Source: Bacteroidota bacterium (GTDB lineage Bacteria; Bacteroidota; Bacteroidia; Bacteroidales; Tenuifilaceae). Taken from it: DNA of 64,000 nt. Position 1 is the stretch's first letter. The number at the start of each line of letters is the position of its first letter. This document shows, in pieces, positions 3,020 through 33,095 of the stretch. The DNA lies in the NCBI GenBank assembly GCA_029560875.1, contig JAKQKB010000033.1:124001-188000 (forward strand), read 5' to 3'. Made by a program: the position numbers and the translations under genes. The notes beneath the pieces were generated by a model. It saw nothing but the letters and a program-made list of their open reading frames with translations, was not told the DNA's origin and ran no database searches.

Positions 3020-4630
3020 CTAGAATCCCATTCCAAATTTATTCCAGTAGAATGTTTCCAACTCTTTCCAGCGCAAAATGGTTGCACCAGTAAAGTCCTT
3101 GGTGTAATGGGTTAGCAGTTTCTTGGCCTCATCAACCTTTCCTGCTTTAATCAATGCATCAACCTGTTGTTCAAGCATTTTTGACTCCATTTCAACTTTT
3201 TGCTCAAAGTATTTCACCTCGCCAATCATATCATCCTTTGTTTCTTGCCAAGCCAAAGTTGCTAACTTGTTGGCTTTGCGATACTGCCATAGCAAGGCAT
3301 CATCCCTGTACCGTTTCTGTCCACAATAGTTAAAGTAATCGGGTAGTTCAGTAATTCCTGAGAAGATTGGAATACGGGGACTTTGTCCAGGATTATCTAC
3401 TGAAAACCAAGCAAGTCCTCCAATCTCATCGGGCAACCAATCTCTTAACTGAACAATATGTGAGTACGAGCACCACGACACAGCCACAGTGCGCTGAAAA
3501 TTAATTGTACCATCCTTTAGGAAATTCAGCATATTGCGCTCGTGCCCTGTTAACCAGGGATGTGCAATTGGAGAAAGAACTGTATCCTGACTGATAACCT
3601 CGCGTTTATCGTTGTACTTTTTGAGGACATACTTCATGTTCTGGGTCATATCGTACTTTGTACCCTCATAAGTTTCGCGGTAAAGAGCCAATACATCGTA
3701 AACAGACACCTTTTTATCAGGCTTAACAGAGAAGGGCAACTCTTCCATCTCCATGCTTAAGTTTTGCGAAGGAGCCAATGTGTTTAGTATAAAAAATTCA
3801 CGAATCATATAGGGTTTCTTCACATTACCGTATGCTTTCCAAAACTTAAATGGCTCATTTCCATCCCAAAGGTTCAGTTTTTTTGCAACCTCAAAAACGT
3901 TCTCCGAAGCCATAAAATGCTCTTTATCCTTTAGGTTGATTGTAGATATCCTGGCGATATTAGCTGAAACACCAACATGGTCGTCAGGAACACGCTGAGC
4001 AGCCCAAACACCACCAATTTTATCGGGGCCTTCGCCAAAAATCTCCATTTGCCAAACCTCTTTTTTATCGGCAATGGTAATACACTCGCCCCAATCGCCA
4101 TAACCGTAATCCTTAATTAACTTTCCAATAAGTTGAATGGCATCGCGGGCAGTAGAGCAACGCTGAAGCGCAATTCGCTGCAACTCCTCAATAAGAAACA
4201 TCCCCTTTTCATTAACCAAAATTTTAGCACCAGTAATGGTAGTTTCACCCATTGCCAATTGCTTCTCGTTCAAAAAAGGATAAGCGGTATTAAAGAATGT
4301 GAAGGTTTCCTTTGCCTGTGGAATCTCCCCTACTTTTGTAACATTCTGCAAATCCCACTTCGATTCGGTTTTAAGCAAGCCTTTATAGATAGATGTAATA
4401 GTATCGTTCTTAAACTTTTGACCCTTTTCAATTGTCATCCAAGTGCGATATTTACCATCGCAGGTATGGCTGGTAATTACAGAACCGTCGGCTGATGCTT
4501 TCTTTCCAACAAGAATACTGGTACAGGTTTCGCCAAAATAGGGGTCGTTAACCTGGTCGAATATGCTTTGGGCAAAAGAGCCCTGATAAAGCAGTAAAAA
4601 TGTGAATAACGTTGTAACCAATTTACTCAT
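3020..4630 (-). CDS. C69-family dipeptidase
   Basis: A 536-residue Ntn-hydrolase of peptidase family C69 (PepD-like). An N-terminal signal peptide (about residues 1-21, ending SFA-Q) precedes the sequence ETCTSILVGKKASADGSVI. Cys36 in this CTS motif is the expected nucleophile exposed by maturation, and the DGS motif follows at the family's usual spacing. Family members hydrolyse dipeptides; with a signal peptide this one acts in the periplasm or at the envelope. Length is typical. A TAGTTTTG box at 4672-4679 on this strand lies about 40 bp upstream of the ATG, and the hairpin at 2971-3004 follows the stop, so it is probably monocistronic. Substrate specificity cannot be read from sequence. 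Confidence 0.9.
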   Translation of the reverse strand: MSKLVTTLFTFLLLYQGSFAQSIFDQVNDPYFGETCTSILVGKKASADGSVITSHTCDGKYRTWMTIEKGQKFKNDTITSIYKGLLKTESKWDLQNVTKVGEIPQAKETFTFFNTAYPFLNEKQLAMGETTITGAKILVNEKGMFLIEELQRIALQRCSTARDAIQLIGKLIKDYGYGDWGECITIADKKEVWQMEIFGEGPDKIGGVWAAQRVPDDHVGVSANIARISTINLKDKEHFMASENVFEVAKKLNLWDGNEPFKFWKAYGNVKKPYMIREFFILNTLAPSQNLSMEMEELPFSVKPDKKVSVYDVLALYRETYEGTKYDMTQNMKYVLKKYNDKREVISQDTVLSPIAHPWLTGHERNMLNFLKDGTINFQRTVAVSWCSYSHIVQLRDWLPDEIGGLAWFSVDNPGQSPRIPIFSGITELPDYFNYCGQKRYRDDALLWQYRKANKLATLAWQETKDDMIGEVKYFEQKVEMESKMLEQQVDALIKAGKVDEAKKLLTHYTKDFTGATILRWKELETFYWNKFGMGF

Positions 4631-4671
4631 ATACGGGTTGTTTTTAGGTTTCTGATTTAGTTAGATAATTT

Positions 4672-4679
4672 CAAAACTA
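4672..4679 (-). promoter_or_regulatory. -7 box for the C69 dipeptidase gene
   Basis: The plus strand reads CAAAACTA, i.e. TAGTTTTG on the minus strand, matching the Bacteroidota -7 consensus TAnnTTTG. It would give a leader of about 35 nt before the ATG at 4630. I see no clear TTG at -33. Confidence 0.45.
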
Positions 4680-4846
4680 ATAAGATTAATCAGATTTTAA
4701 ATAATTTATCGCTACTGTCCGATAAAACTCAATAGACACTACGCTATCGTTCAGCATGACAACGGCCAATTACAAATGAAAAATCTAACGCTAAATTAAA
4801 TTTTGTTAAAAATTCAAATTGCGTAACCAACATATAAAAAGGTACG

Positions 4847-11287: not shown

Positions 11288-11322
11288 AAACTCTGTCAGT
11301 ATTCAAAACCCTGACAGAGTTT
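11288..11322. repeat. Dispersed palindromic repeat, copy 2
   Basis: Perfect 12-base arms (AAACTCTGTCAG / CTGACAGAGTTT) surround an 11-base loop. The segment AACCCTGACAGAGTTTGGAA at 11307-11326 matches 18 of 20 bases of copy 1 (2971-2990). It lies between the RND stop and the next ATG and may weaken read-through to the kinase gene. Confidence 0.6.
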
Positions 11323-11339
11323 GGAATCCTTTTACAAAA

Positions 11340-12086
11340 ATGAAAAAAGAAATCTACATTAACCCTGCATTCAAACACCTATCCGCGGCTATAAATAGCA
11401 TCTCGGAAAACTTTGAAAACAAAGGAGAACTAACCCACACTGGCCGAAACCAAGTTAGGGTAATAGATGTAAATGGTTTTAAAATGGTGGCTAAATACTT
11501 TAAAAGGATAACTTTAGCCAACAGGTATATATACGCTACTATTCGAAAATCAAAAGCGCAACGGTCGTTTGAGAACTCTGTTTATCTTTTAAGCAGAGGG
11601 ATAAACACCCCCGAACCAATTGCATATATTAATTTATACAAGTTCGGAATGCTTTATAAGTGTTACTACATTAGCGTTTACACAGATTTTAAGCCATTAA
11701 CAGAAATTTTTGAACAAACAATACCCGAATCGGAAGGCGCGCTAAAAGCATTCGCCAAATTCACCTTCAAACTACACCGCTCGGGCATTGCGCACAACGA
11801 TTATACTGTTAACAACATTCTGTACACCCAAGAGAATGACAAATATAAATTCTCGCTAATCGACAATAATAGGATGACTTTCCGAAAGTATTCCTACACA
11901 AGAGGTATAAAAGATTTGGAGCGGCTAAAAATACCTGTGGATAAAATGGGAATAATTGCGGCGGAGTATGCTAAAGAGGCAAATACAAGCGATATAAGAA
12001 CCCTTAACGCTATGCTTTTTTTTAGAATTAGGTATCTGTTTAAAGGGCGATTAAGGGGGTGGGTAAAAGCATTCTTATCACTTTAG
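11340..12086 (+). CDS. WaaP/Kdo-kinase-like (InaA-type) lipopolysaccharide kinase
   Basis: A 248-residue protein-kinase-fold enzyme. The catalytic loop reads HRSGIAHNDYTVNNIL: the H-x-D is followed by the metal-binding Asn. The following FSLIDNNRM replaces the DFG segment and keeps its aspartate. This matches the lipopolysaccharide core heptose/Kdo kinase family, which phosphorylates inner-core sugars in the cytoplasm before export. The ATG at 11340 is preferred; an upstream in-frame TTG (11259) would force translation through the palindromic repeat. It follows the RND gene by 97 bp on the same strand and may or may not belong to the TetR operon. The sugar acceptor cannot be read from sequence. 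Confidence 0.8.
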   Translation: MKKEIYINPAFKHLSAAINSISENFENKGELTHTGRNQVRVIDVNGFKMVAKYFKRITLANRYIYATIRKSKAQRSFENSVYLLSRGINTPEPIAYINLYKFGMLYKCYYISVYTDFKPLTEIFEQTIPESEGALKAFAKFTFKLHRSGIAHNDYTVNNILYTQENDKYKFSLIDNNRMTFRKYSYTRGIKDLERLKIPVDKMGIIAAEYAKEANTSDIRTLNAMLFFRIRYLFKGRLRGWVKAFLSL

Positions 12087-12093
12087 CAAAAGG

Positions 12094-12124
12094 AAAGAGT
12101 CTATAGCAAGGCTATAGACTCTTT
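12094..12124. terminator. Bidirectional terminator
   Basis: A perfect 14-bp stem (AAAGAGTCTATAGC and its complement) with a 3-base loop lies between the convergent kinase and DUF5689 genes, with T-rich flanks on both strands. Confidence 0.85.
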
Positions 12125-12145
12125 CTATATTAATGTAATAATGTT

Positions 12146-14206
12146 CTATTGAAAAACGGTAACATCATCAATGCGATATGCAGTGGTTTGTGTACCACTA
12201 CCTGTATACTTAAATGCAATGTATACATCACCAGAGAAAGCAGAGAGGTCAACTTTACCAGACTTAACCCATTTGTTTGTACCATCGGCCTGAGTCACGA
12301 TTACAGCTTCAGTCAACTCGGTCATAGTAGCATTCCACGGACTTGAACCATCATAATTAGTTAAAATATATGCTTTAAGAGTTGAATTTGCCCAAAAGTT
12401 ATACTGCGATTCAAACATTAAATAGTAGGTAACCCCTGCTGGAATTGTAACTTTAGGCGAAACCAACCACGCAATATTACTAGCCTCTCCGGATTGATAT
12501 GGATTCATCTCGGCATAGGTATCGCCACTATACTGCTTAGCATTCCAAACCCTTGTACCAGCCTCGGCAATGGTTTGCCAGCCTCCCACTGAGATTGGAG
12601 AATTCACTGTTGCTGTAGTAAAATCCTGCGAAAGAGCTTTCAGAACTCTAGGCCCATTCATTTGCACATCAGTTACTTTTTGTAGGTACAACTGATAGTA
12701 GCTAGTGCTACCAACTGAATACTTTCCAAGCAAAGCCTTTACCGTCCCTCTACCGGAAGGTAATATACTAGTAGCAAAAGTTGAACGGTTACTATTACGA
12801 ACAACAATCTTATTGAAATCACCATCCTCAACGCTTCTATCTGTAGTAGCGCTAGTTTCTGAGTAACCACGGCCAACTTCTCCATCCAAGAATTGAACTC
12901 CTGAAAGTAAAATAACTTTACCCAACATAGAGTCGTTAATCTCTGGTATAGTTGTTTCAAGTGGAGCAATTGGTTCGCCAGAGCCAGTAATATAGATACT
13001 TTTATAAAACAAATCAGGAGCAAGGTTTCCTAAATATGAACCATCTAGTCCTCCTAATTTAGTTACACCATATGACTTTCCAATATATAAACCAGAGCAA
13101 TTAACTGTAACCATAGTCCCCACAGGGAAATCGGCATAAAGCATTGTTGTATAAATCTTATACTCAATTGCTCCTGTTTCGTCTTGAATGCAAAGCGACT
13201 GATATATATTACCATTCTCATCGTTAGCAACTACCATACCTTGAATTACAAACTCACCAGTAATTTGTACTGGACTTGAGCCTGTATTATAAGCCTTCAA
13301 TTGAGCAATTGTTTTATTGGCTACCGGTGCAGCAGTTCCAAAACGGGGATCAGTAAAATTTATATCGTTTAAATCGCGAATATAAAACTGGCGGGTTGTT
13401 CCATAAGTACTAAGCACACCAGTAATAGAGCCACTACCACTTGGCAACATTTCGTTTTTAAACTTGGCGTAACCACTATTACGTAGGGCAATTTGGTTGC
13501 CATACTTATCTATAACAATTCTATTGGTGGTTTCTCCATCTATGCTGAAGGGTAGTCCTGGATTCCAAAACTGAACGCTATCTATTGTAACAAGTTTGGA
13601 AACATGAGCATCGGTAATCTCATTAATCTTTAACTTAAGAGGCTCAAGATTCACCTTACGACCAGAGAGCTGAATACATTTATTAACATCACCCGGAAGG
13701 AGTTTATCTACCTTAATAATATTGTTACCATTATACACATCAGTTATTGCTAGCCCAAGTTGGTAAACGCCATTGTACTTATCCAACGCTAAATCGTTGG
13801 CCCGCACAAGCACCTTTTGTCCAGCTTTTAAGTTATACTTTAAGTATATCTCCGAGGAGTTAATTTTAAACTCAATACCGCCAGTTTCGTCCATTATGGT
13901 TACTGTCTCGTAGAAATTGCTTGCCGAATCCGATGAAATAACGTATCCCTCAAAAACAATAGAGGAATCAACTCCACCTTGAGCGATAATTGCATCCCAA
14001 AAAGCAGCATTGGCAAGTTTCTTAACAACACCAGCCTTATCTACATACAATGCATTTAACTGAGCAATTGTAACTGTTTTATTCCAAGTGGCTACATTCT
14101 CAAGAGGAGGTGTAGTGTCAAAATCCTCTTTTACGCATCCTGAGGGAATAAAAAATATTCCAAAAAAAACCACTGCTGAAAAAAGGGTTAATATTCTCTT
14201 TATCAT
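12146..14206 (-). CDS. DUF5689 lipoprotein with choice-of-anchor J domain
   Basis: A 686-residue SPII lipoprotein; the lipobox cysteine is Cys24 (PSGC), followed by V-K-E-D-F-D, an acidic surface-export-type tail. Two DUF5689 units are visible (about residues 38-280 and 293-510). Each starts with a T-I-A-Q-L segment and contains the pattern G-x-V-x-S/A-x-D ... Q/M-DETG-x-I-E-(F/Y)-KI, which resembles the OB-fold domains attached to extracellular nucleases. The last 165 residues look like a choice-of-anchor J beta-sandwich ending YRIDDVTVFQ. It is the last gene of an operon with a second DUF5689 lipoprotein and a TonB receptor. A ligand-capture role at the cell surface is inferred. Confidence 0.85.
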   Translation of the reverse strand: MIKRILTLFSAVVFFGIFFIPSGCVKEDFDTTPPLENVATWNKTVTIAQLNALYVDKAGVVKKLANAAFWDAIIAQGGVDSSIVFEGYVISSDSASNFYETVTIMDETGGIEFKINSSEIYLKYNLKAGQKVLVRANDLALDKYNGVYQLGLAITDVYNGNNIIKVDKLLPGDVNKCIQLSGRKVNLEPLKLKINEITDAHVSKLVTIDSVQFWNPGLPFSIDGETTNRIVIDKYGNQIALRNSGYAKFKNEMLPSGSGSITGVLSTYGTTRQFYIRDLNDINFTDPRFGTAAPVANKTIAQLKAYNTGSSPVQITGEFVIQGMVVANDENGNIYQSLCIQDETGAIEYKIYTTMLYADFPVGTMVTVNCSGLYIGKSYGVTKLGGLDGSYLGNLAPDLFYKSIYITGSGEPIAPLETTIPEINDSMLGKVILLSGVQFLDGEVGRGYSETSATTDRSVEDGDFNKIVVRNSNRSTFATSILPSGRGTVKALLGKYSVGSTSYYQLYLQKVTDVQMNGPRVLKALSQDFTTATVNSPISVGGWQTIAEAGTRVWNAKQYSGDTYAEMNPYQSGEASNIAWLVSPKVTIPAGVTYYLMFESQYNFWANSTLKAYILTNYDGSSPWNATMTELTEAVIVTQADGTNKWVKSGKVDLSAFSGDVYIAFKYTGSGTQTTAYRIDDVTVFQ

Positions 14207-27137: not shown

Positions 27138-27161
27138 AAAAGAAGCAGCAATGCTTCTTTT
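27138..27161 (+). terminator. Terminator after lepA
   Basis: A 10-bp stem (AAAAGAAGCA / TGCTTCTTTT) with a GCAA loop runs into a long T stretch. An ATG at 27151 lies inside this hairpin and is therefore not a start codon. Confidence 0.88.
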
Positions 27162-27177
27162 TTTTTACTTTTATGCA

Positions 27178-27939
27178 ATGATAAAGGAGTGGCTACGAAA
27201 TATCAGGATGAATTACGCCTCGGAGCAAACCTACATTGCTCAAAGGATGTTGCAGGAGCAGGGTGGTTGGCAATCGCATCTGAAAAACTCAAAAAAATTC
27301 ATTGAGGAATTCATTTCTGAGCATCCGTCAAAATCAATCAATATTCTTGGCAGCGGTTGGCTGCTCGATGTTCCAATGGATAAAATTATTGAGCAATTCG
27401 ACAGCGTTGTTTTAACCGATATTTACCACCCAAAGCAAATTGTAAACCGATACTCAAAATATCCAAATGTTGAATTCAAAACAGCCGACTTAACCTACGG
27501 AGCAGTTGATTTAACTTACGCTGTAAATAAAAGGAATTTCAACCTCGAAGAATATCTCACTAAAATTAAGGCGATTAAGCGTGTTAATTACGATGCGGAT
27601 TTAGTAGTATCATTAAACCTGCTGAGCCAACTCAGCATATTTATAACAGACTACCTTACAAACAAAGTTGCTCTAGACAATAATCAGATTATCGAAATAG
27701 CATCTGTAATACAACTAAATCACTTAAAATGGTTGCCACAAAACAGGTCGGTATTGATTACTGATTATGAGGAGGAGTTCGTTGATGAGGACAACAAGTT
27801 TATAGGCTCAAAACCAACTATTTTTATTGATATACCTAAGAGTAATGGCACCAAGGAATGGACTTGGAAGTTCGATTCTCAAATGACTTACCGAGAGGAT
27901 TGTAAAACATACCTAAAAGTGGTCGCAACAAAAATATAA
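27178..27939 (+). CDS. Uncharacterised protein, methyltransferase-like Rossmann fold
   Basis: A 253-residue soluble protein from the ATG at 27178, just after the lepA terminator. The segment KSINILGSGWLLDVPMDKI resembles motif I of class I SAM-dependent methyltransferases, with VVLTDIYHP in the place of the acidic residue that binds the ribose and VEFKTADLTYGAVDL after it. The catalytic half is not recognisable and no substrate motif is visible. The family seems Bacteroidota-typical but I cannot name it. A methyltransferase-like fold without proof of activity is the fair call. A terminator overlaps its stop. Confidence 0.6.
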   Translation: MIKEWLRNIRMNYASEQTYIAQRMLQEQGGWQSHLKNSKKFIEEFISEHPSKSINILGSGWLLDVPMDKIIEQFDSVVLTDIYHPKQIVNRYSKYPNVEFKTADLTYGAVDLTYAVNKRNFNLEEYLTKIKAIKRVNYDADLVVSLNLLSQLSIFITDYLTNKVALDNNQIIEIASVIQLNHLKWLPQNRSVLITDYEEEFVDEDNKFIGSKPTIFIDIPKSNGTKEWTWKFDSQMTYREDCKTYLKVVATKI

Positions 27940-27961
27940 AAGGGAGCACTTGGCTCCCTTT
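27939..27961. terminator. Bidirectional terminator
   Basis: A 9-bp stem (AAAGGGAGC / GCTCCCTTT) with a 5-base loop lies between the convergent methyltransferase-like and GH16-like genes. Confidence 0.8.
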
Positions 27962-27972
27962 GCAATATCAAT

Positions 27973-29445
27973 TTATGATTTTTTCCAGCACTTAACCCAA
28001 TCTATTTCCATGTAGGCTGGCAATTTTGACTCATCTATATTGCCATTCACTCCCGAAGCAAATACAAGGTAAAGTGGCACATTAGGACTTAGGTTTGGCT
28101 GAATTTTATAAGGTGTTCCATTGATTGTCCATACAATAGCTTTCGCATCCCATTCAACGCCTAAAACATAGAATTTTGAGTCCAATTTCAGTCCACCAAT
28201 GCTATGAACAGACTTGCGTACTTTAGCAGAACCATTAGTCCAAAAATAAGCGCCAGAAATTGAATTTTGCTTAGAATCGGATTTCAAGAAAACATCTAAC
28301 TCTGGCAACATCTTATCTCCAACAAGGTAAAATGCATGGCTAACACCATTTACACAGGACATTTTTACCTTAGCCTCAATTTTTCCCTCAGCTTGCCTAT
28401 AAATATGTCCTGTATTTATAACACCTGAAGTATAGTTAAAGGTTTTTGAAATAAAACCAAATTTCTTATCCCAAGCCAGTCCTTCAGCCTTTTCCTTTCG
28501 TGTAACAATTTTAAGTGTTCCGTTTTTCAACTCTAAATTGCCACCATCGGAATAAAATTGCTCATTTGTTGCAAAGGAGTAGGCTTTGTTAATTAGAGCA
28601 TCGCCCCAGAAAAACTTTGTAAGCCATCGTTGGGTGTCAATGGTTTTGCCATCAAAATCATCGTGAAACAACAAACTCCAATGCTTCAACTCGTCAAACT
28701 TATGGCTGTCCTTCACCTTAAAGTACCATTTCACTTTCTCAGATGATTCGAGAGTTCTGAACTCCTGAAGTTTTTTGTAAGCCTCAGTTTGCTCAAACTT
28801 ATTCTTACTCAAAAGATATTTCTTCCTTTCGGCAAACTCAGCAGAATCAACCTTAGCCTTTAGCTCATTATAGCGTTGAAGTGTTTGTGAGCCCTCAATA
28901 CTGAAGTAGTCCTTTAATGGCTTAAAATTAAGCAGTTTGAAGTAACGCTTTAAATCAGAATTAGAATTCAACTCATTAAACCTAATCTCCTTTTGGTACT
29001 CCTCGGTGTTGTCTTTTTTGTAAGCACTCCTATTCTTCTTATAATCGGCACTAGAAATAAAGTCTTTCAAGTTGTTATACTCCTCAACAAGGCCAGATTG
29101 CTCAATCTTTCTGATAAATATTGGATTATCGGTTGCGGATTGCTTAATATAGTTTTTAAGAGCACCATTCGACAAAAACTTTTTTAGTTCCTGTTCCTCT
29201 TTAAACTCATTAGAATTTTTGTAAGTAACAGCCTCTAGTTCCTGTTTAACCTTAAGATGCTCCTTAGTCTCAACCCAAGTCTTCAACTCCTGATATCTAG
29301 CCCATTCGTCGGATTGAGAGTATGTAAGCAATTCTTCGTACTCAGTTTCAAGGGCCTTTTGGGCTATTTCCACGGTTTCGGTATCCTTAAAACTACCGAA
29401 TAAGCGATTGGTAAATACTTTAAAGGTTGAAGGAGTTGTTGCCAT
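27973..29445 (-). CDS. GH16-like concanavalin-fold protein with N-terminal threefold repeat, no signal peptide
   Basis: A 490-residue protein. Residues about 255-490 have the GH16 laminarinase-like beta-jelly-roll pattern: FHDDFDGKTIDTQRW, then YRQAEGKIEAKVKM, then MEIDWVKCW near the end. At the active-site strand it reads PELDVFLK, so the nucleophile (E382) and D384 of the usual E-x-D-x-x-E are present, but the acid/base position (387) is Leu. Residues 50-256 hold three imperfect repeats of about 65 residues, each with a Y-x-x-L-K...S-x-x-(F/Y) segment and ending L-K-x-Y-(F/I)-K. No signal peptide or lipobox is seen, unlike secreted GH16 enzymes. It lies 24 bp after a SiaC-type regulator on the same strand. 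A degenerate or non-catalytic glycan-binding domain is possible. Confidence 0.75.
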   Translation of the reverse strand: MATTPSTFKVFTNRLFGSFKDTETVEIAQKALETEYEELLTYSQSDEWARYQELKTWVETKEHLKVKQELEAVTYKNSNEFKEEQELKKFLSNGALKNYIKQSATDNPIFIRKIEQSGLVEEYNNLKDFISSADYKKNRSAYKKDNTEEYQKEIRFNELNSNSDLKRYFKLLNFKPLKDYFSIEGSQTLQRYNELKAKVDSAEFAERKKYLLSKNKFEQTEAYKKLQEFRTLESSEKVKWYFKVKDSHKFDELKHWSLLFHDDFDGKTIDTQRWLTKFFWGDALINKAYSFATNEQFYSDGGNLELKNGTLKIVTRKEKAEGLAWDKKFGFISKTFNYTSGVINTGHIYRQAEGKIEAKVKMSCVNGVSHAFYLVGDKMLPELDVFLKSDSKQNSISGAYFWTNGSAKVRKSVHSIGGLKLDSKFYVLGVEWDAKAIVWTINGTPYKIQPNLSPNVPLYLVFASGVNGNIDESKLPAYMEIDWVKCWKKS

Positions 29446-29469
29446 CTGAAAAACTTTTGTGTTGTAAAT

Positions 29470-29853
29470 TTATTGTCGTTGACTTGCAATAAAGTTGAAA
29501 GGTAACTTTAAGTGTTCGGCATAATCCTCACCTGCTTCAACCATATCTTCATCATCCTCCATGTAATGCCAGTTCACCACAACGGTATAACCTTTACGAT
29601 GAATCTCCCTAAATTTCTCCAATATTTTTAAAATCATTTTTGAGGAGGATGTATTGTAATAATCAAAGCTCAGGTCCAACTCTGTTTTCTGGTTTGGATT
29701 TGCCATATAATCATCAATCCACTCCATTATTGGGTTGTAGAAGGAAGTTACATCTTCAGGTAAAGAGTTACCCGCAAACTCAAAAATTGACTTTTCCTTA
29801 TCGAGAACCACTTTTGGAGTTTCAGTGGTTGGTTCTAAAATAATCGATTCCAT
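29470..29853 (-). CDS. SiaC-family (DUF1987) regulatory protein
   Basis: A 127-residue cytoplasmic protein. The ATG at 29853 (MESIILEP) is preferred over an in-frame TTG at 29880. It has the DUF1987/SiaC pattern: an opening beta-strand pair, the FEFAGNSLPEDV segment, then YNTSSSKMILKILEKF and GYTVVVNWHYMEDDEDMVEAG. SiaC proteins in other bacteria are phosphorylated on a serine or threonine here (the TSSSK region) and act as switches controlling signalling enzymes such as diguanylate cyclases. Here no SiaA or SiaB partner is adjacent; the following gene is the GH16-like protein, 24 bp downstream, with which it is probably cotranscribed. Confidence 0.8.
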   Translation of the reverse strand: MESIILEPTTETPKVVLDKEKSIFEFAGNSLPEDVTSFYNPIMEWIDDYMANPNQKTELDLSFDYYNTSSSKMILKILEKFREIHRKGYTVVVNWHYMEDDEDMVEAGEDYAEHLKLPFNFIASQRQ

Positions 29854-29914
29854 AACACCTACATTTTTTCCAGCCAACAATAATGTTAAAGTTATGTAAT
29901 ATTCTTAAATAAAC

Positions 29915-29948
29915 CAAAAATAACCTCTTTTAACATATGTTACGCAAA
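29915..29948 (-). promoter_or_regulatory. Promoter for the SiaC/GH16-like operon
   Basis: On the minus strand a TTTG (plus 29945-29948) lies 22 bases before TATTTTTG (plus 29915-29922), the -33 and TAnnTTTG -7 pattern. Transcription would begin near 29909, about 55 nt before the ATG. Confidence 0.55.
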
Positions 29949-29982: not shown

Positions 29983-30021
29983 TATAAAAGTATTTGATGT
30001 AAACCACCAAATACTTTTATA
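29983..30021 (-). terminator. Terminator after the response regulator gene
   Basis: A perfect 14-bp stem (TATAAAAGTATTTG and its complement) with an 11-base loop lies just after the rprY-like stop. It isolates the two-component operon from the SiaC promoter. Confidence 0.75.
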
Positions 30022-30032
30022 GCAGAATCAAA

Positions 30033-30725
30033 TTAGTAAATTAGTTTAAACCCTTTACCTCGTACATTGATAATTTCGATAGTTGGGTCATCGCTCAAAT
30101 ACTTACGTAGTTTAGTGATGTAAACGTCCATGCTACGCGCATTAAAATAGCTATCGTCAACCCAAATGGTTTTAAGAGCAAAATTTCGGTCAAGCAACGA
30201 ATTTTTGTTGATGCAAAGATACTTAAGAAGTTCACTCTCCTTGGTGGTTAACTTCCTAACATCATTATCAATCTGGAGAGTTTGCTTAGTCGCATCAAAA
30301 ATGTACTTACCAATTTGAAACTGCGACTGCTCTGTCAAAGGAGAATCTTTTCGGGTTCTGCGAAGAATAGCCTCAAGTCTCATAAGTAGTTCTTCAATGC
30401 TAAACGGCTTTGTCATATAATCATCGGCACCCAACGCAAAGCCTTCGATTACATCCTCTTTCATTGATTTAGCGGTAAGGAAAAGAATTGGCATTGTGCC
30501 ATTAGACATGCGAATTTCCTTTGCCAAAGTAAACCCATCCTTAATGGGCATCATAACATCTAAAATGCAGATATCGTAGTAGTTATTTTGAAATCCCTTG
30601 AAGGCCTTCTCTCCATCCTTATATAGGTCTACCTCGTAATCTTTTGCTTGAAGGTACTCCTTAAGAAGAAAGCCTAAATTCTCATCGTCCTCTGCAAGTA
30701 GGACACGGATTTTTCTATTTTCCAT
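30033..30725 (-). CDS. rprY: OmpR-family response regulator, RprY-like
   Basis: A 230-residue two-component regulator. The receiver has the acidic pocket (AEDDEN), the phosphoacceptor Asp56 in DICILDVMMP, and TAK with the conserved Lys in TKPFSIEELL. The C-terminal winged helix holds RSMDVYITKLRKYL and IINVRGKGFKLIY, which bind DNA. Overall wording closely resembles RprY of Bacteroides, a regulator linked to stress and antibiotic phenotypes. It follows its sensor by 20 bp and is in the same operon. The symbol is by resemblance; a paralogue cannot be excluded. Confidence 0.85.
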   Translation of the reverse strand: MENRKIRVLLAEDDENLGFLLKEYLQAKDYEVDLYKDGEKAFKGFQNNYYDICILDVMMPIKDGFTLAKEIRMSNGTMPILFLTAKSMKEDVIEGFALGADDYMTKPFSIEELLMRLEAILRRTRKDSPLTEQSQFQIGKYIFDATKQTLQIDNDVRKLTTKESELLKYLCINKNSLLDRNFALKTIWVDDSYFNARSMDVYITKLRKYLSDDPTIEIINVRGKGFKLIY

Positions 30726-30745: not shown

Positions 30746-32344
30746 TTAACTATTTCTTTCTGTTGGGCCACTCCACGGTAAGAATATTGAGAAAGTACTG
30801 CCAATACCAAGTGTACTATCCACCCAAATTCTACCGCCATGAGCTTCAACAATTTTTTTTACGTAACTTAAGCCTAAACCAAATCCTTTAACATTATGAA
30901 TATTGCCGCTGGGAACCCGATAAAATTGGTCGAAAATCTTTCGGATATTATCGCGGCTAATACCTATTCCATTATCCTTAAAGGCAATAACAATTCCACC
31001 CGTTGCATTCTTTGTAAATATAGTAATTTCTGGATTGCCATTTTTATACTTTACAGCATTATCTAGCAGATTATTAACCACATTGGTAACATGAACCTCG
31101 TCTGCAACTATTAGTGGGTTATTTGCATTTAGCTCTGTGATAAGAATTCCGTTTTGCGATTGAAGTTGCAGCGCAAAATTTGCCGAAACCTTTTTAACTA
31201 CCTCATGAATATCAATATCCTTCAACTTCAGTTTCAACTTCGTTTTTTCGAATATTGCCATTTGAAGCACTTTTTCAACCTGAAGTCCAAGCCGTTTGCT
31301 TTCATCAGCAATAACTCCCCCCAAGTAGGTTAAATTCTTCCGTTCAATTGGAATGCTTTTGTCGTTTAGCATTTGTGCTGCTAACGATATGGTTGATATG
31401 GGCGTTTTTAATTCGTGGGTCATGTTGCTCACAAAATCGTTCTTAATCTCCGACACTCTTTTTTGCCTGAATATAATGTACAACGTAACGGAGAAACTAA
31501 GTATTATAAGCAATGTGAGTAAAAAGGTAGAGAAAGTCATTAATCCTAACGAACTTATAACATATGTTTTTTGGTTTGGGAAGTAAATGGTTAAAAAGTA
31601 TCGCCGAGCAAAAAAATCGTTAGGGAAAAGTTTGTCTTTTAGCACAAGACCTTTATGATTCGACTTAAACTTTTCGCTCTTGTAAATTGCACTATCTTTC
31701 TCGTTAGTTACCTTATACTCAAACCTAGCCTCAATGCCTTTTCGGATTAGCTCTCTTCGGATAATTGAATCGAGTAGTTCTTCTGAAATTCGCTCCTGAA
31801 TAGGCAATTCCACCCGGATAAGTTTATCGACAATATTCTCAACAAAAACAGTTTTATTCAAAACCTTTCCATCTAAACCTAGGTCTAAATTTATGGAACC
31901 AGCACTATTTTTACTATTACCAGTCCTATTTATTGAAAGACTTGAACCAGAATTAAGGGCATTTAAGGTGCTATCGAATAAATTACGGGTCAGTGTCGGG
32001 AGTTTTATCGTATCAAGATTACTAACGGTAAGAACCTGCTGGCTAATTTGCTTTGTACGAATGCCACTTTTTGTTTTATTGAGTATTCCCTGATGGTAGG
32101 ACATCCGCGCATCGCCTTTTGTACTTACAGAGTAATAGGGCTTTATTTCGTCAATAATCTGAACTACGGTTTCCTGCTTTTCAATCTCCTCAACGATGTT
32201 TTGCATAGCGAGGCTTGCCGACTGAGCAAACTGTTCCTCTTTGGTTTGTACAGCAATACGAACCCACTTAGATTGTACCAAAACCAACCCAAGCGAGGCC
32301 AATGAAATAATAACCGTTAATACCCAAAGAAGTTTTCTACTCAT
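30746..32344 (-). CDS. rprX: Membrane sensor histidine kinase, RprX-like
   Basis: A 532-residue sensor. It has a first membrane helix at about residues 5-24, a periplasmic domain of about 230 residues, and a second helix near 263-292, then HisKA with phosphoacceptor His310 (FVSNMTHELKTPIS) and a HATPase_c domain with the N box (NVVNNLLDNAVKYK) and the G boxes (KDNGIGI, GFGLGLSYVKKI). It should autophosphorylate and pass phosphate to the adjacent RprY-like regulator. A TATCTTTG box ends only five bases before its ATG, which suggests a leaderless or very short-leader transcript. The signal sensed is unknown. Confidence 0.88.
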   Translation of the reverse strand: MSRKLLWVLTVIISLASLGLVLVQSKWVRIAVQTKEEQFAQSASLAMQNIVEEIEKQETVVQIIDEIKPYYSVSTKGDARMSYHQGILNKTKSGIRTKQISQQVLTVSNLDTIKLPTLTRNLFDSTLNALNSGSSLSINRTGNSKNSAGSINLDLGLDGKVLNKTVFVENIVDKLIRVELPIQERISEELLDSIIRRELIRKGIEARFEYKVTNEKDSAIYKSEKFKSNHKGLVLKDKLFPNDFFARRYFLTIYFPNQKTYVISSLGLMTFSTFLLTLLIILSFSVTLYIIFRQKRVSEIKNDFVSNMTHELKTPISTISLAAQMLNDKSIPIERKNLTYLGGVIADESKRLGLQVEKVLQMAIFEKTKLKLKLKDIDIHEVVKKVSANFALQLQSQNGILITELNANNPLIVADEVHVTNVVNNLLDNAVKYKNGNPEITIFTKNATGGIVIAFKDNGIGISRDNIRKIFDQFYRVPSGNIHNVKGFGLGLSYVKKIVEAHGGRIWVDSTLGIGSTFSIFLPWSGPTERNS

Positions 32345-32509: not shown

Positions 32510-32920
32510 TTATTCAGGACAAAAAGGTTCGTTCCGTTTAATTGAAGAGGGTACAATCTCTATTGCCGCAATAACATTAGAAATTTTTTTAACGACTTGC
32601 ATGTGCGTTTTAAAGTCATGGGGTAATAGTTCTCCAGTAAACTCTAGAACAAAATCAACATTGCTTAATTGCTTCACAAGCATTTTACCCTCGTACTTAT
32701 TCTGAATAAGAGATACAACAATAGCCGATTTTGTATCTCTGAAGGAAAAAGTTGGAAACCCAGTGACTCTTTCCAAATCAGCATTTCGAACTAGTTTCAA
32801 GTCCAAGGCACTATTCAACTCCCAAACCAACTTATTGATGTTGTGCTGTGCAGAGATTGCAATTAACTTAAAATTACAATGGTTCTCAAGATTGAGTACT
32901 TCTTTATTTTTTTTTGCCAA
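32510..32920 (-). CDS. IPExxxVDY-family protein
   Basis: A protein of about 136 residues from a TTG at 32920 (AKKNKEVLNLE..), or 149 from an ATG at 32959. The family usually begins with a short Lys-rich stretch, then a beta-strand and an ISxxx motif (here CNFKLIAISAQHNINKLVWELNSAL), so the TTG start looks better; it is a judgement. The usual IPExxxVDY motif is changed here: the place reads VKQLSNVDFVLEFTGE, keeping only VD. This small family of Bacteroidota is of unknown function and is often found next to rnc. Here a frameshifted beta-barrel gene on the other strand separates the two. Confidence 0.65.
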   Translation of the reverse strand: MAKKNKEVLNLENHCNFKLIAISAQHNINKLVWELNSALDLKLVRNADLERVTGFPTFSFRDTKSAIVVSLIQNKYEGKMLVKQLSNVDFVLEFTGELLPHDFKTHMQVVKKISNVIAAIEIVPSSIKRNEPFCPE

Positions 32921-33095
32921 AATCCTGCTGATAAAGATTAACGGAAGCAAGATACCCAAAATAATAAATGAAAATTATTCCATCTGTCAAAAAAACTTAT
33001 AAATAATTGACTGACATTACTTTTTGCCCTAATTTTAATTTGATAATGAATACATTATAAAATTAAGCCTTTAAAAAACTAAAACTATCCAAGCC

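Follow-up and report, generated by a model that had tools for sequence, protein, structure and literature searches.

The siaC and GH16-like genes and their surroundings

The window, by which we mean the whole stretch of 64,000 nucleotides that was analysed, carries on its minus strand a SiaC/DUF1987 gene and, downstream of it, a gene encoding a 490-residue GH16-like protein, a pair that had been proposed from the open reading frames and that the Pfam searches also return. The region originally delimited for the pair, 27973-29948, does contain both genes, but its upper end lies ~95 bp beyond the SiaC start, in an intergenic stretch. The features of the locus are as follows, in window coordinates.

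27939-27961, minus strand: terminator-like hairpin (weak), 3' of the GH16-like gene
27973-29445, minus strand: gene for the GH16-like protein, 490 residues (PF00722, E 1.6e-10; AlphaFold pLDDT 92.3)
27976-28692, minus strand: predicted GH16 jelly roll lacking the acid/base Glu, residues 252-490 (Z 26.9, rmsd 1.5 over 207 residues to 6jhj)
28282-28305, minus strand: PELDVFLK, residues 381-388, at the place of the catalytic strand (alignment)
28696-29382, minus strand: predicted alpha-helical rod, residues 22-250, with units from near residues 45, 117, and 186 (repeat HMM and model helices)
29386-29445, minus strand: short hydrophobic/basic N-terminal peptide, residues 1-20 (low model confidence)
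29470-29853, minus strand: SiaC/DUF1987 gene, 127 residues, ATG start (PF09345, E 4.2e-41)
29983-30021, minus strand: terminator-like hairpin (weak), between rprY and siaC
30033-30725, minus strand: RprY-type response regulator (NCBIfam RprY, 365.3 bits, slightly below the cut-off of 370), a neighbour whose membership is not implied
30746-32344, minus strand: sensor histidine kinase at the RprX position (HisKA and HATPase_c), likewise only a neighbour

The mechanical SiaC ORF starts upstream of the ATG, at a TTG at 29880. The Pfam domain PF09345 is recognized with 139.8 bits (cut-off 24.5), while the NCBIfam SiaC equivalog model NF038265 returns 92 bits, below the cut-off of 150 for a SiaABCD equivalog. 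The N-T-S triplet occupies residues 67-69 of the window SiaC, with the same numbering as the switch site of the Pseudomonas aeruginosa protein (counted by eye, unaligned), so the window copy appears to possess the Thr68 expected of a SiaC. The gap between siaC and the GH16-like gene is 24 bp, and together they look like a two-gene unit of their own. The two hairpins bracketing them compare with 1.2 expected in a scan of the window, barely above chance, and the nine promoter-like sites found in the window are no excess over the 8.2 expected. A Bacteroidota-like promoter motif lies upstream of SiaC in some loci and is absent in others, a comparison made with no control set and not counted as evidence. 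Two further proteins flank this region. Convergent with the GH16-like gene, a 262-residue protein (27151-27939, plus strand) matches nothing in Pfam below E 0.03, and its relatives occur at 21 loci of the set, window counted. Upstream of the histidine kinase, a 149-residue protein (32510-32959, minus strand) likewise matches no Pfam family at E 0.01, and has relatives at 22 loci.

The open frame of the GH16-like gene comprises 498 codons, only eight of them 5' of the ATG, which leaves no room for a missed signal-peptide start; the original prediction of a protein devoid of a signal peptide thus holds for the window gene. A crude hydropathy count across the family sees no export signals, the sole exported-looking protein being one (L176) that was dropped. 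The protein is therefore apparently cytoplasmic, as had been suggested, to judge from the window frame and the hydropathy of its relatives. A canonical secreted GH16 was considered as the identity of the window protein and is excluded by the short 5' frame, the hydropathy, and the missing catalytic pair. The N-terminal peptide was considered as a possible membrane peptide. With rough picking of starts, it has a hydropathy of 0.17, as compared with -0.29 for the rod, and is net positive in 89 of 120 members; its amphipathic moment is no higher (0.23 versus 0.21). The gene is present in a single copy in the window's genome.

A predicted GH16 jelly roll on a helical repeat rod

Pfam reports Glyco_hydro_16 (PF00722) at residues 304-484 with 41.2 bits (cut-off 22). 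An AlphaFold2 model built on 61 family sequences (pLDDT 92.3) supports the GH16-like jelly roll proposed originally: the predicted C-terminal domain superimposes on the laminarinase 6jhj with a Z-score of 26.9 and an rmsd of 1.5 Å over 207 residues, at 24% identity, and Foldseek relates it to 4dfs (E 1.9e-18). Both the model and the PF00722 score thus point to the beta-jelly-roll of GH16. A search of viral folds returns GH16 or laminarinase-like structures on top, followed by tail and uncharacterised proteins (best 50 of 186, E 0.001 or better). The jelly-roll fold is shared with the GH16 laminarinases 6jhj, 4crq, and 3azx, which we presume to belong to subfamily GH16_3. The family differs from them in the absence of a full E-x-D-x-x-E motif in 120 members, a changed cleft, the absence of a secretion signal, and the presence of a helical rod.

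This rod was not part of the original prediction. Residues 1-250 are helical in the model, and a repeat HMM counts three units in the window protein; of the 122 proteins, 120 give a match, with between one and nine units each. The unit comprises ~70 residues, since the number of units correlates with protein length (r 0.95) with a slope of 70 residues among these 120 proteins. Modelled alone, the rod reaches a pLDDT of 91.5; Foldseek finds nothing at or below E 0.001, and the best VIA-align score is a Z of 7.2 to an SMC coiled coil. A known fold for the rod was thus sought and rejected, only generic coiled coils being matched, and the predicted resemblance to these may reflect a common arrangement only. 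A search with the rod alignment matches at least 98 of 386 genomes, every one of which is also among those listed as encoding the GH16-like protein. One match (G114:C112) lies on a different contig from the GH16-like gene of that genome, which a contig end cuts, and is taken, unchecked, as the other half of the cut gene.

Distribution and constraint

Within the window's taxonomic family, 26 of 27 genomes encode the protein, the missing genome being 63% complete. A search of the order, probably Bacteroidales to judge from the related loci L031 and L032, matches 103 of 393 sampled genomes at E 1e-15 or better, or 102 after removal of L176 (genome G231), an ordinary secreted GH16. For the comparison of loci, 120 regions were fetched, covering all 97 matching genomes of the order outside the window's family; with L031 (Marinilabiliaceae), L032, and the window itself, the set comprises 123 loci, or 122 after L176, which was left out of every family count. 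L159 and L076 (truncated) were left out of the residue counts and the gene tree. Beyond the order, a phylum search with the family alignment matches 27 of 395 genomes, a sample with few genomes of the same order; among the matches listed, none outside the window's genome covers the rod, all of them starting at model position 236 or later. A weak match of 77 residues occurs in Clostridia (L033).

A polysaccharide-utilisation locus was considered and rejected, as the commonest neighbours at other loci look like atpD/atpC, fmt, gyrB, and lepA, judged from protein starts and, for some neighbour clusters, from Pfam. The dN/dS ratio is 0.056-0.12 in five close pairs, which indicates that the gene is under purifying selection despite the lost site; comparisons against the window itself are mostly saturated at synonymous sites.

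Loss of the catalytic site

The PELDVFLK segment reads as first reported, E382 and D384 being kept and Leu standing at 387 in place of Glu. The alignment of 120 members extends this observation, beyond the original prediction, to the family. The nucleophile position 382 is occupied by His in 55 members, Glu in 29, and Gln in 27; position 384 by Asp in 86 and Asn in 21; and the acid/base position 387 by Lys in 57, Arg in 29, and Glu in only six. Glu is never found at both 382 and 387 (0/120), so that the protein, as first proposed, is dead by the canonical criterion. Nor does any of the 120 have Glu at 386, which covers as well the E-x-D-x-E variant of the GH16 motif described in excerpts of PMC6827312. 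Neither version of the motif of active GH16 enzymes therefore occurs in the window protein or in the 120 members, while the full motif is present at all 19 canonical GH16 loci used as controls (19 fetched of the 28 non-window phylum matches). E382 and D384 are retained together in 29 of the 120, that is, the window protein and 28 others. Canonical residues are also altered within 292-298, 363-370, and 463-468 and at 401 and 426, and the family has residues of its own (W325, G330, F331, R350, Q351, P381, and N442). Going by its aligned residues, the whole family, beyond the window copy, is devoid of the canonical catalytic site.

Loss of catalysis in the GH16 fold has precedents, such as the insect beta-glucan recognition/Gram-negative binding proteins and other noncatalytic GH16_4 members, which likewise keep the fold. 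The sections available of PMC6827312 report that one or both catalytic residues are lost in ~9% of GH16_4, 0.7% of GH16_3, and 1% of other GH16, and that the noncatalytic GH16_4 members, the main record of noncatalytic GH16, are animal and fungal and form no monophyletic groups. In contrast, the family described here is bacterial, the pair is absent in every member examined, and a rod is present. Searches of the open-licence literature turned up no account of a cytoplasmic pseudo-GH16 in bacteria.

SiaC pairing across genomes

Conserved adjacency to SiaC had been put forward as a check on the pairing; it stands in two taxonomic families and lacks support as a general rule. A SiaC gene is located directly upstream, in the same direction, at 26 of 122 loci, 24 of them in the window's family and two in family f80. 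Two more genomes of the window's family, for which wide flanks are lacking (G015 and G016), likewise have SiaC upstream, so that the pairing is present in every one of the 26 genomes of the window's family with a match, and in both of those of family f80. No SiaC was found at the remaining 96 loci, in flanks of mostly ~5 kb, some shorter at contig ends, one locus (L097) being cut 5' and unjudgeable; in the window's genome, the SiaC HMM used here finds each of the 15 further SiaC genes. Moreover, 26 of the 102 genomes carrying the family return no SiaC anywhere. The protein therefore does not need SiaC, which can be no more than a lineage-specific addition.

Where the two genes adjoin, the distance between them is 17-34 bp at all but one of the 26 loci mapped, the exception (L077) having an over-called start codon, while the gap between rprY and siaC varies from 43 to 512 bp (all from mechanical ORF starts). 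The block of rprX, rprY, siaC, and the GH16-like gene, with lepA convergent, is conserved as a whole, so that synteny alone explains some of the adjacency. The order rprXY, GH16-like gene, and lepA also occurs devoid of SiaC, at six loci of families f82 and f93. A quickly built gene tree requires three changes in the presence of SiaC, which makes both gain and loss possible. The YYNTSSSK segment, whose Thr is residue 68 in the window copy, is kept in all 26 SiaC orthologues adjoining the GH16-like gene. Among the matches listed, near orthologues of this SiaC (at least 59% identity) are located at the GH16-like locus only, in eight of eight genomes, all other SiaC matches being at or below 55% identity. 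SiaC and the family co-occur more than expected (76 of 102 versus 87 of 291 genomes; Fisher p 5e-15), but this statistic ignores phylogeny and is thus not counted as support.

A probable non-catalytic scaffold and its possible control by SiaC

The GH16-like protein is very probably a non-catalytic scaffold with a GH16 fold, whether or not SiaC takes part in its function. The complete reading, namely a scaffold or sensor with the GH16 fold that is cytoplasmic and non-hydrolytic, carried on a repeat rod, and controlled by SiaC, has in our judgment about an even chance of being right; we infer the cytoplasmic location, the binding role, and both the contact with SiaC and the control by it. The GH16-fold module on its rod would serve as a binding scaffold or sensor, not as an enzyme, and the best reading of the SiaC distribution is that one lineage acquired SiaC as a phospho-switch that would exert this control.

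The model for such a switch is the SiaABCD system of P. aeruginosa, in which, according to the portions of PMC8457831 available, SiaC binds to the paired helices of the SiaD stalk via N67, T68, and S69, phosphorylation of T68 blocks this binding, and DUF1987 proteins are suggested to be common modulators of adjacent proteins. The accessible part of PMC7647112 contains no mention of "Bacteroid-". The window SiaC has N67-T68-S69 in common with this system, and SiaB-family and PAS-SpoIIE (SiaA-like) genes occur elsewhere in its genome. Unlike in SiaABCD, the gene adjoining siaC does not encode a diguanylate cyclase, and neither siaA nor siaB lies beside siaC, whose neighbours are rprXY and the GH16-like gene. 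By analogy, a helical rod together with a SiaC bearing N67-T68-S69 would fit the SiaC-SiaD picture: in its unphosphorylated state SiaC would bind to the rod, much as the P. aeruginosa protein binds to the stalk helices of SiaD, and it would be released once a SiaB kinase, encoded at another locus, had phosphorylated T68. A more specific version is unlikely and is put forward tentatively. It assumes that SiaC has been recruited to a non-cyclase target by binding the rod of an intracellular pseudo-GH16, that the remodelled and often basic cleft accommodates an anionic cytoplasmic ligand, and that T68 phosphorylation sets the assembly of the rod. If so, rods of one to nine units would provide a tunable number of docking sites.

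The same non-catalytic scaffold may instead have no relation to SiaC, the two genes being cotranscribed as the result of an ancient insertion 3' of rprY, with SiaC having another target. The 96 loci at which no SiaC was found, together with the six that keep rprXY, the GH16-like gene, and lepA without it, speak for such an accident, and the window's genome contains 16 SiaC genes, which makes one adjoining any given gene less telling. This explanation is nevertheless rather doubtful, as the tight siaC spacing persists beside widely varying flanking gaps and the near SiaC orthologue is unseen elsewhere among the matches listed; the window hairpins on both sides of the pair argue weakly in the same direction.

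The two remaining explanations concern the GH16 module itself, and both appear highly improbable. An enzyme with an altered mechanism could use other acidic residues, for example E318 (101 of 120 members) with D384, and E382 is indeed retained in 15 of 25 SiaC-paired members. However, E318 is equally common in canonical GH16 (18 of 19) and is thus likely structural, the nucleophile position is mostly His or Gln and the acid/base position mostly Lys or Arg, and canonical residues are altered in all three segments listed above. An intracellular beta-glucan lectin would parallel the insect recognition proteins, which share the fold, have lost the catalytic Glu, and bind beta-glucan, as reported in the part of PMC6403176 available. 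Against it, canonical cleft residues are altered, those of 292-298 and 463-468 included, and Lys or Arg at 387 in 86 of 120 members would better suit an anionic ligand. The scaffold reading is the one that we retain for the module. A bacterial family in which the catalytic pair is absent in all members examined, with no visible export signal, under purifying selection, and with a rod that, among the matches listed, occurs only in genomes encoding this protein, offers a testable case of a glycosidase fold turned intracellular scaffold. The SiaD cyclase aside, it is also a candidate for a second type of target of SiaC.

Other SiaC and SiaB-family genes of the genome

Besides its SiaC genes, the window's genome contains five DUF6272 genes, and the three tested all exceed the SiaB-family cut-off. 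In one region (L223, 1516-8259), the genes for a PAS-SpoIIE protein, a SiaB-family kinase, a SiaC, and a TerB-domain ABC transporter follow one another, a row resembling a SiaABC module with the transporter as a possible target. The location of this SiaB-SiaC pair between the PAS-SpoIIE and transporter genes suggests that SiaC probably serves several partners in this genome. SiaC genes also occur in tandem: three are consecutive in L222 (5584-6863), and L224 contains two pairs (3986-4831 and 11290-12231), one of which lies directly 3' of a Polysacc_synt gene.
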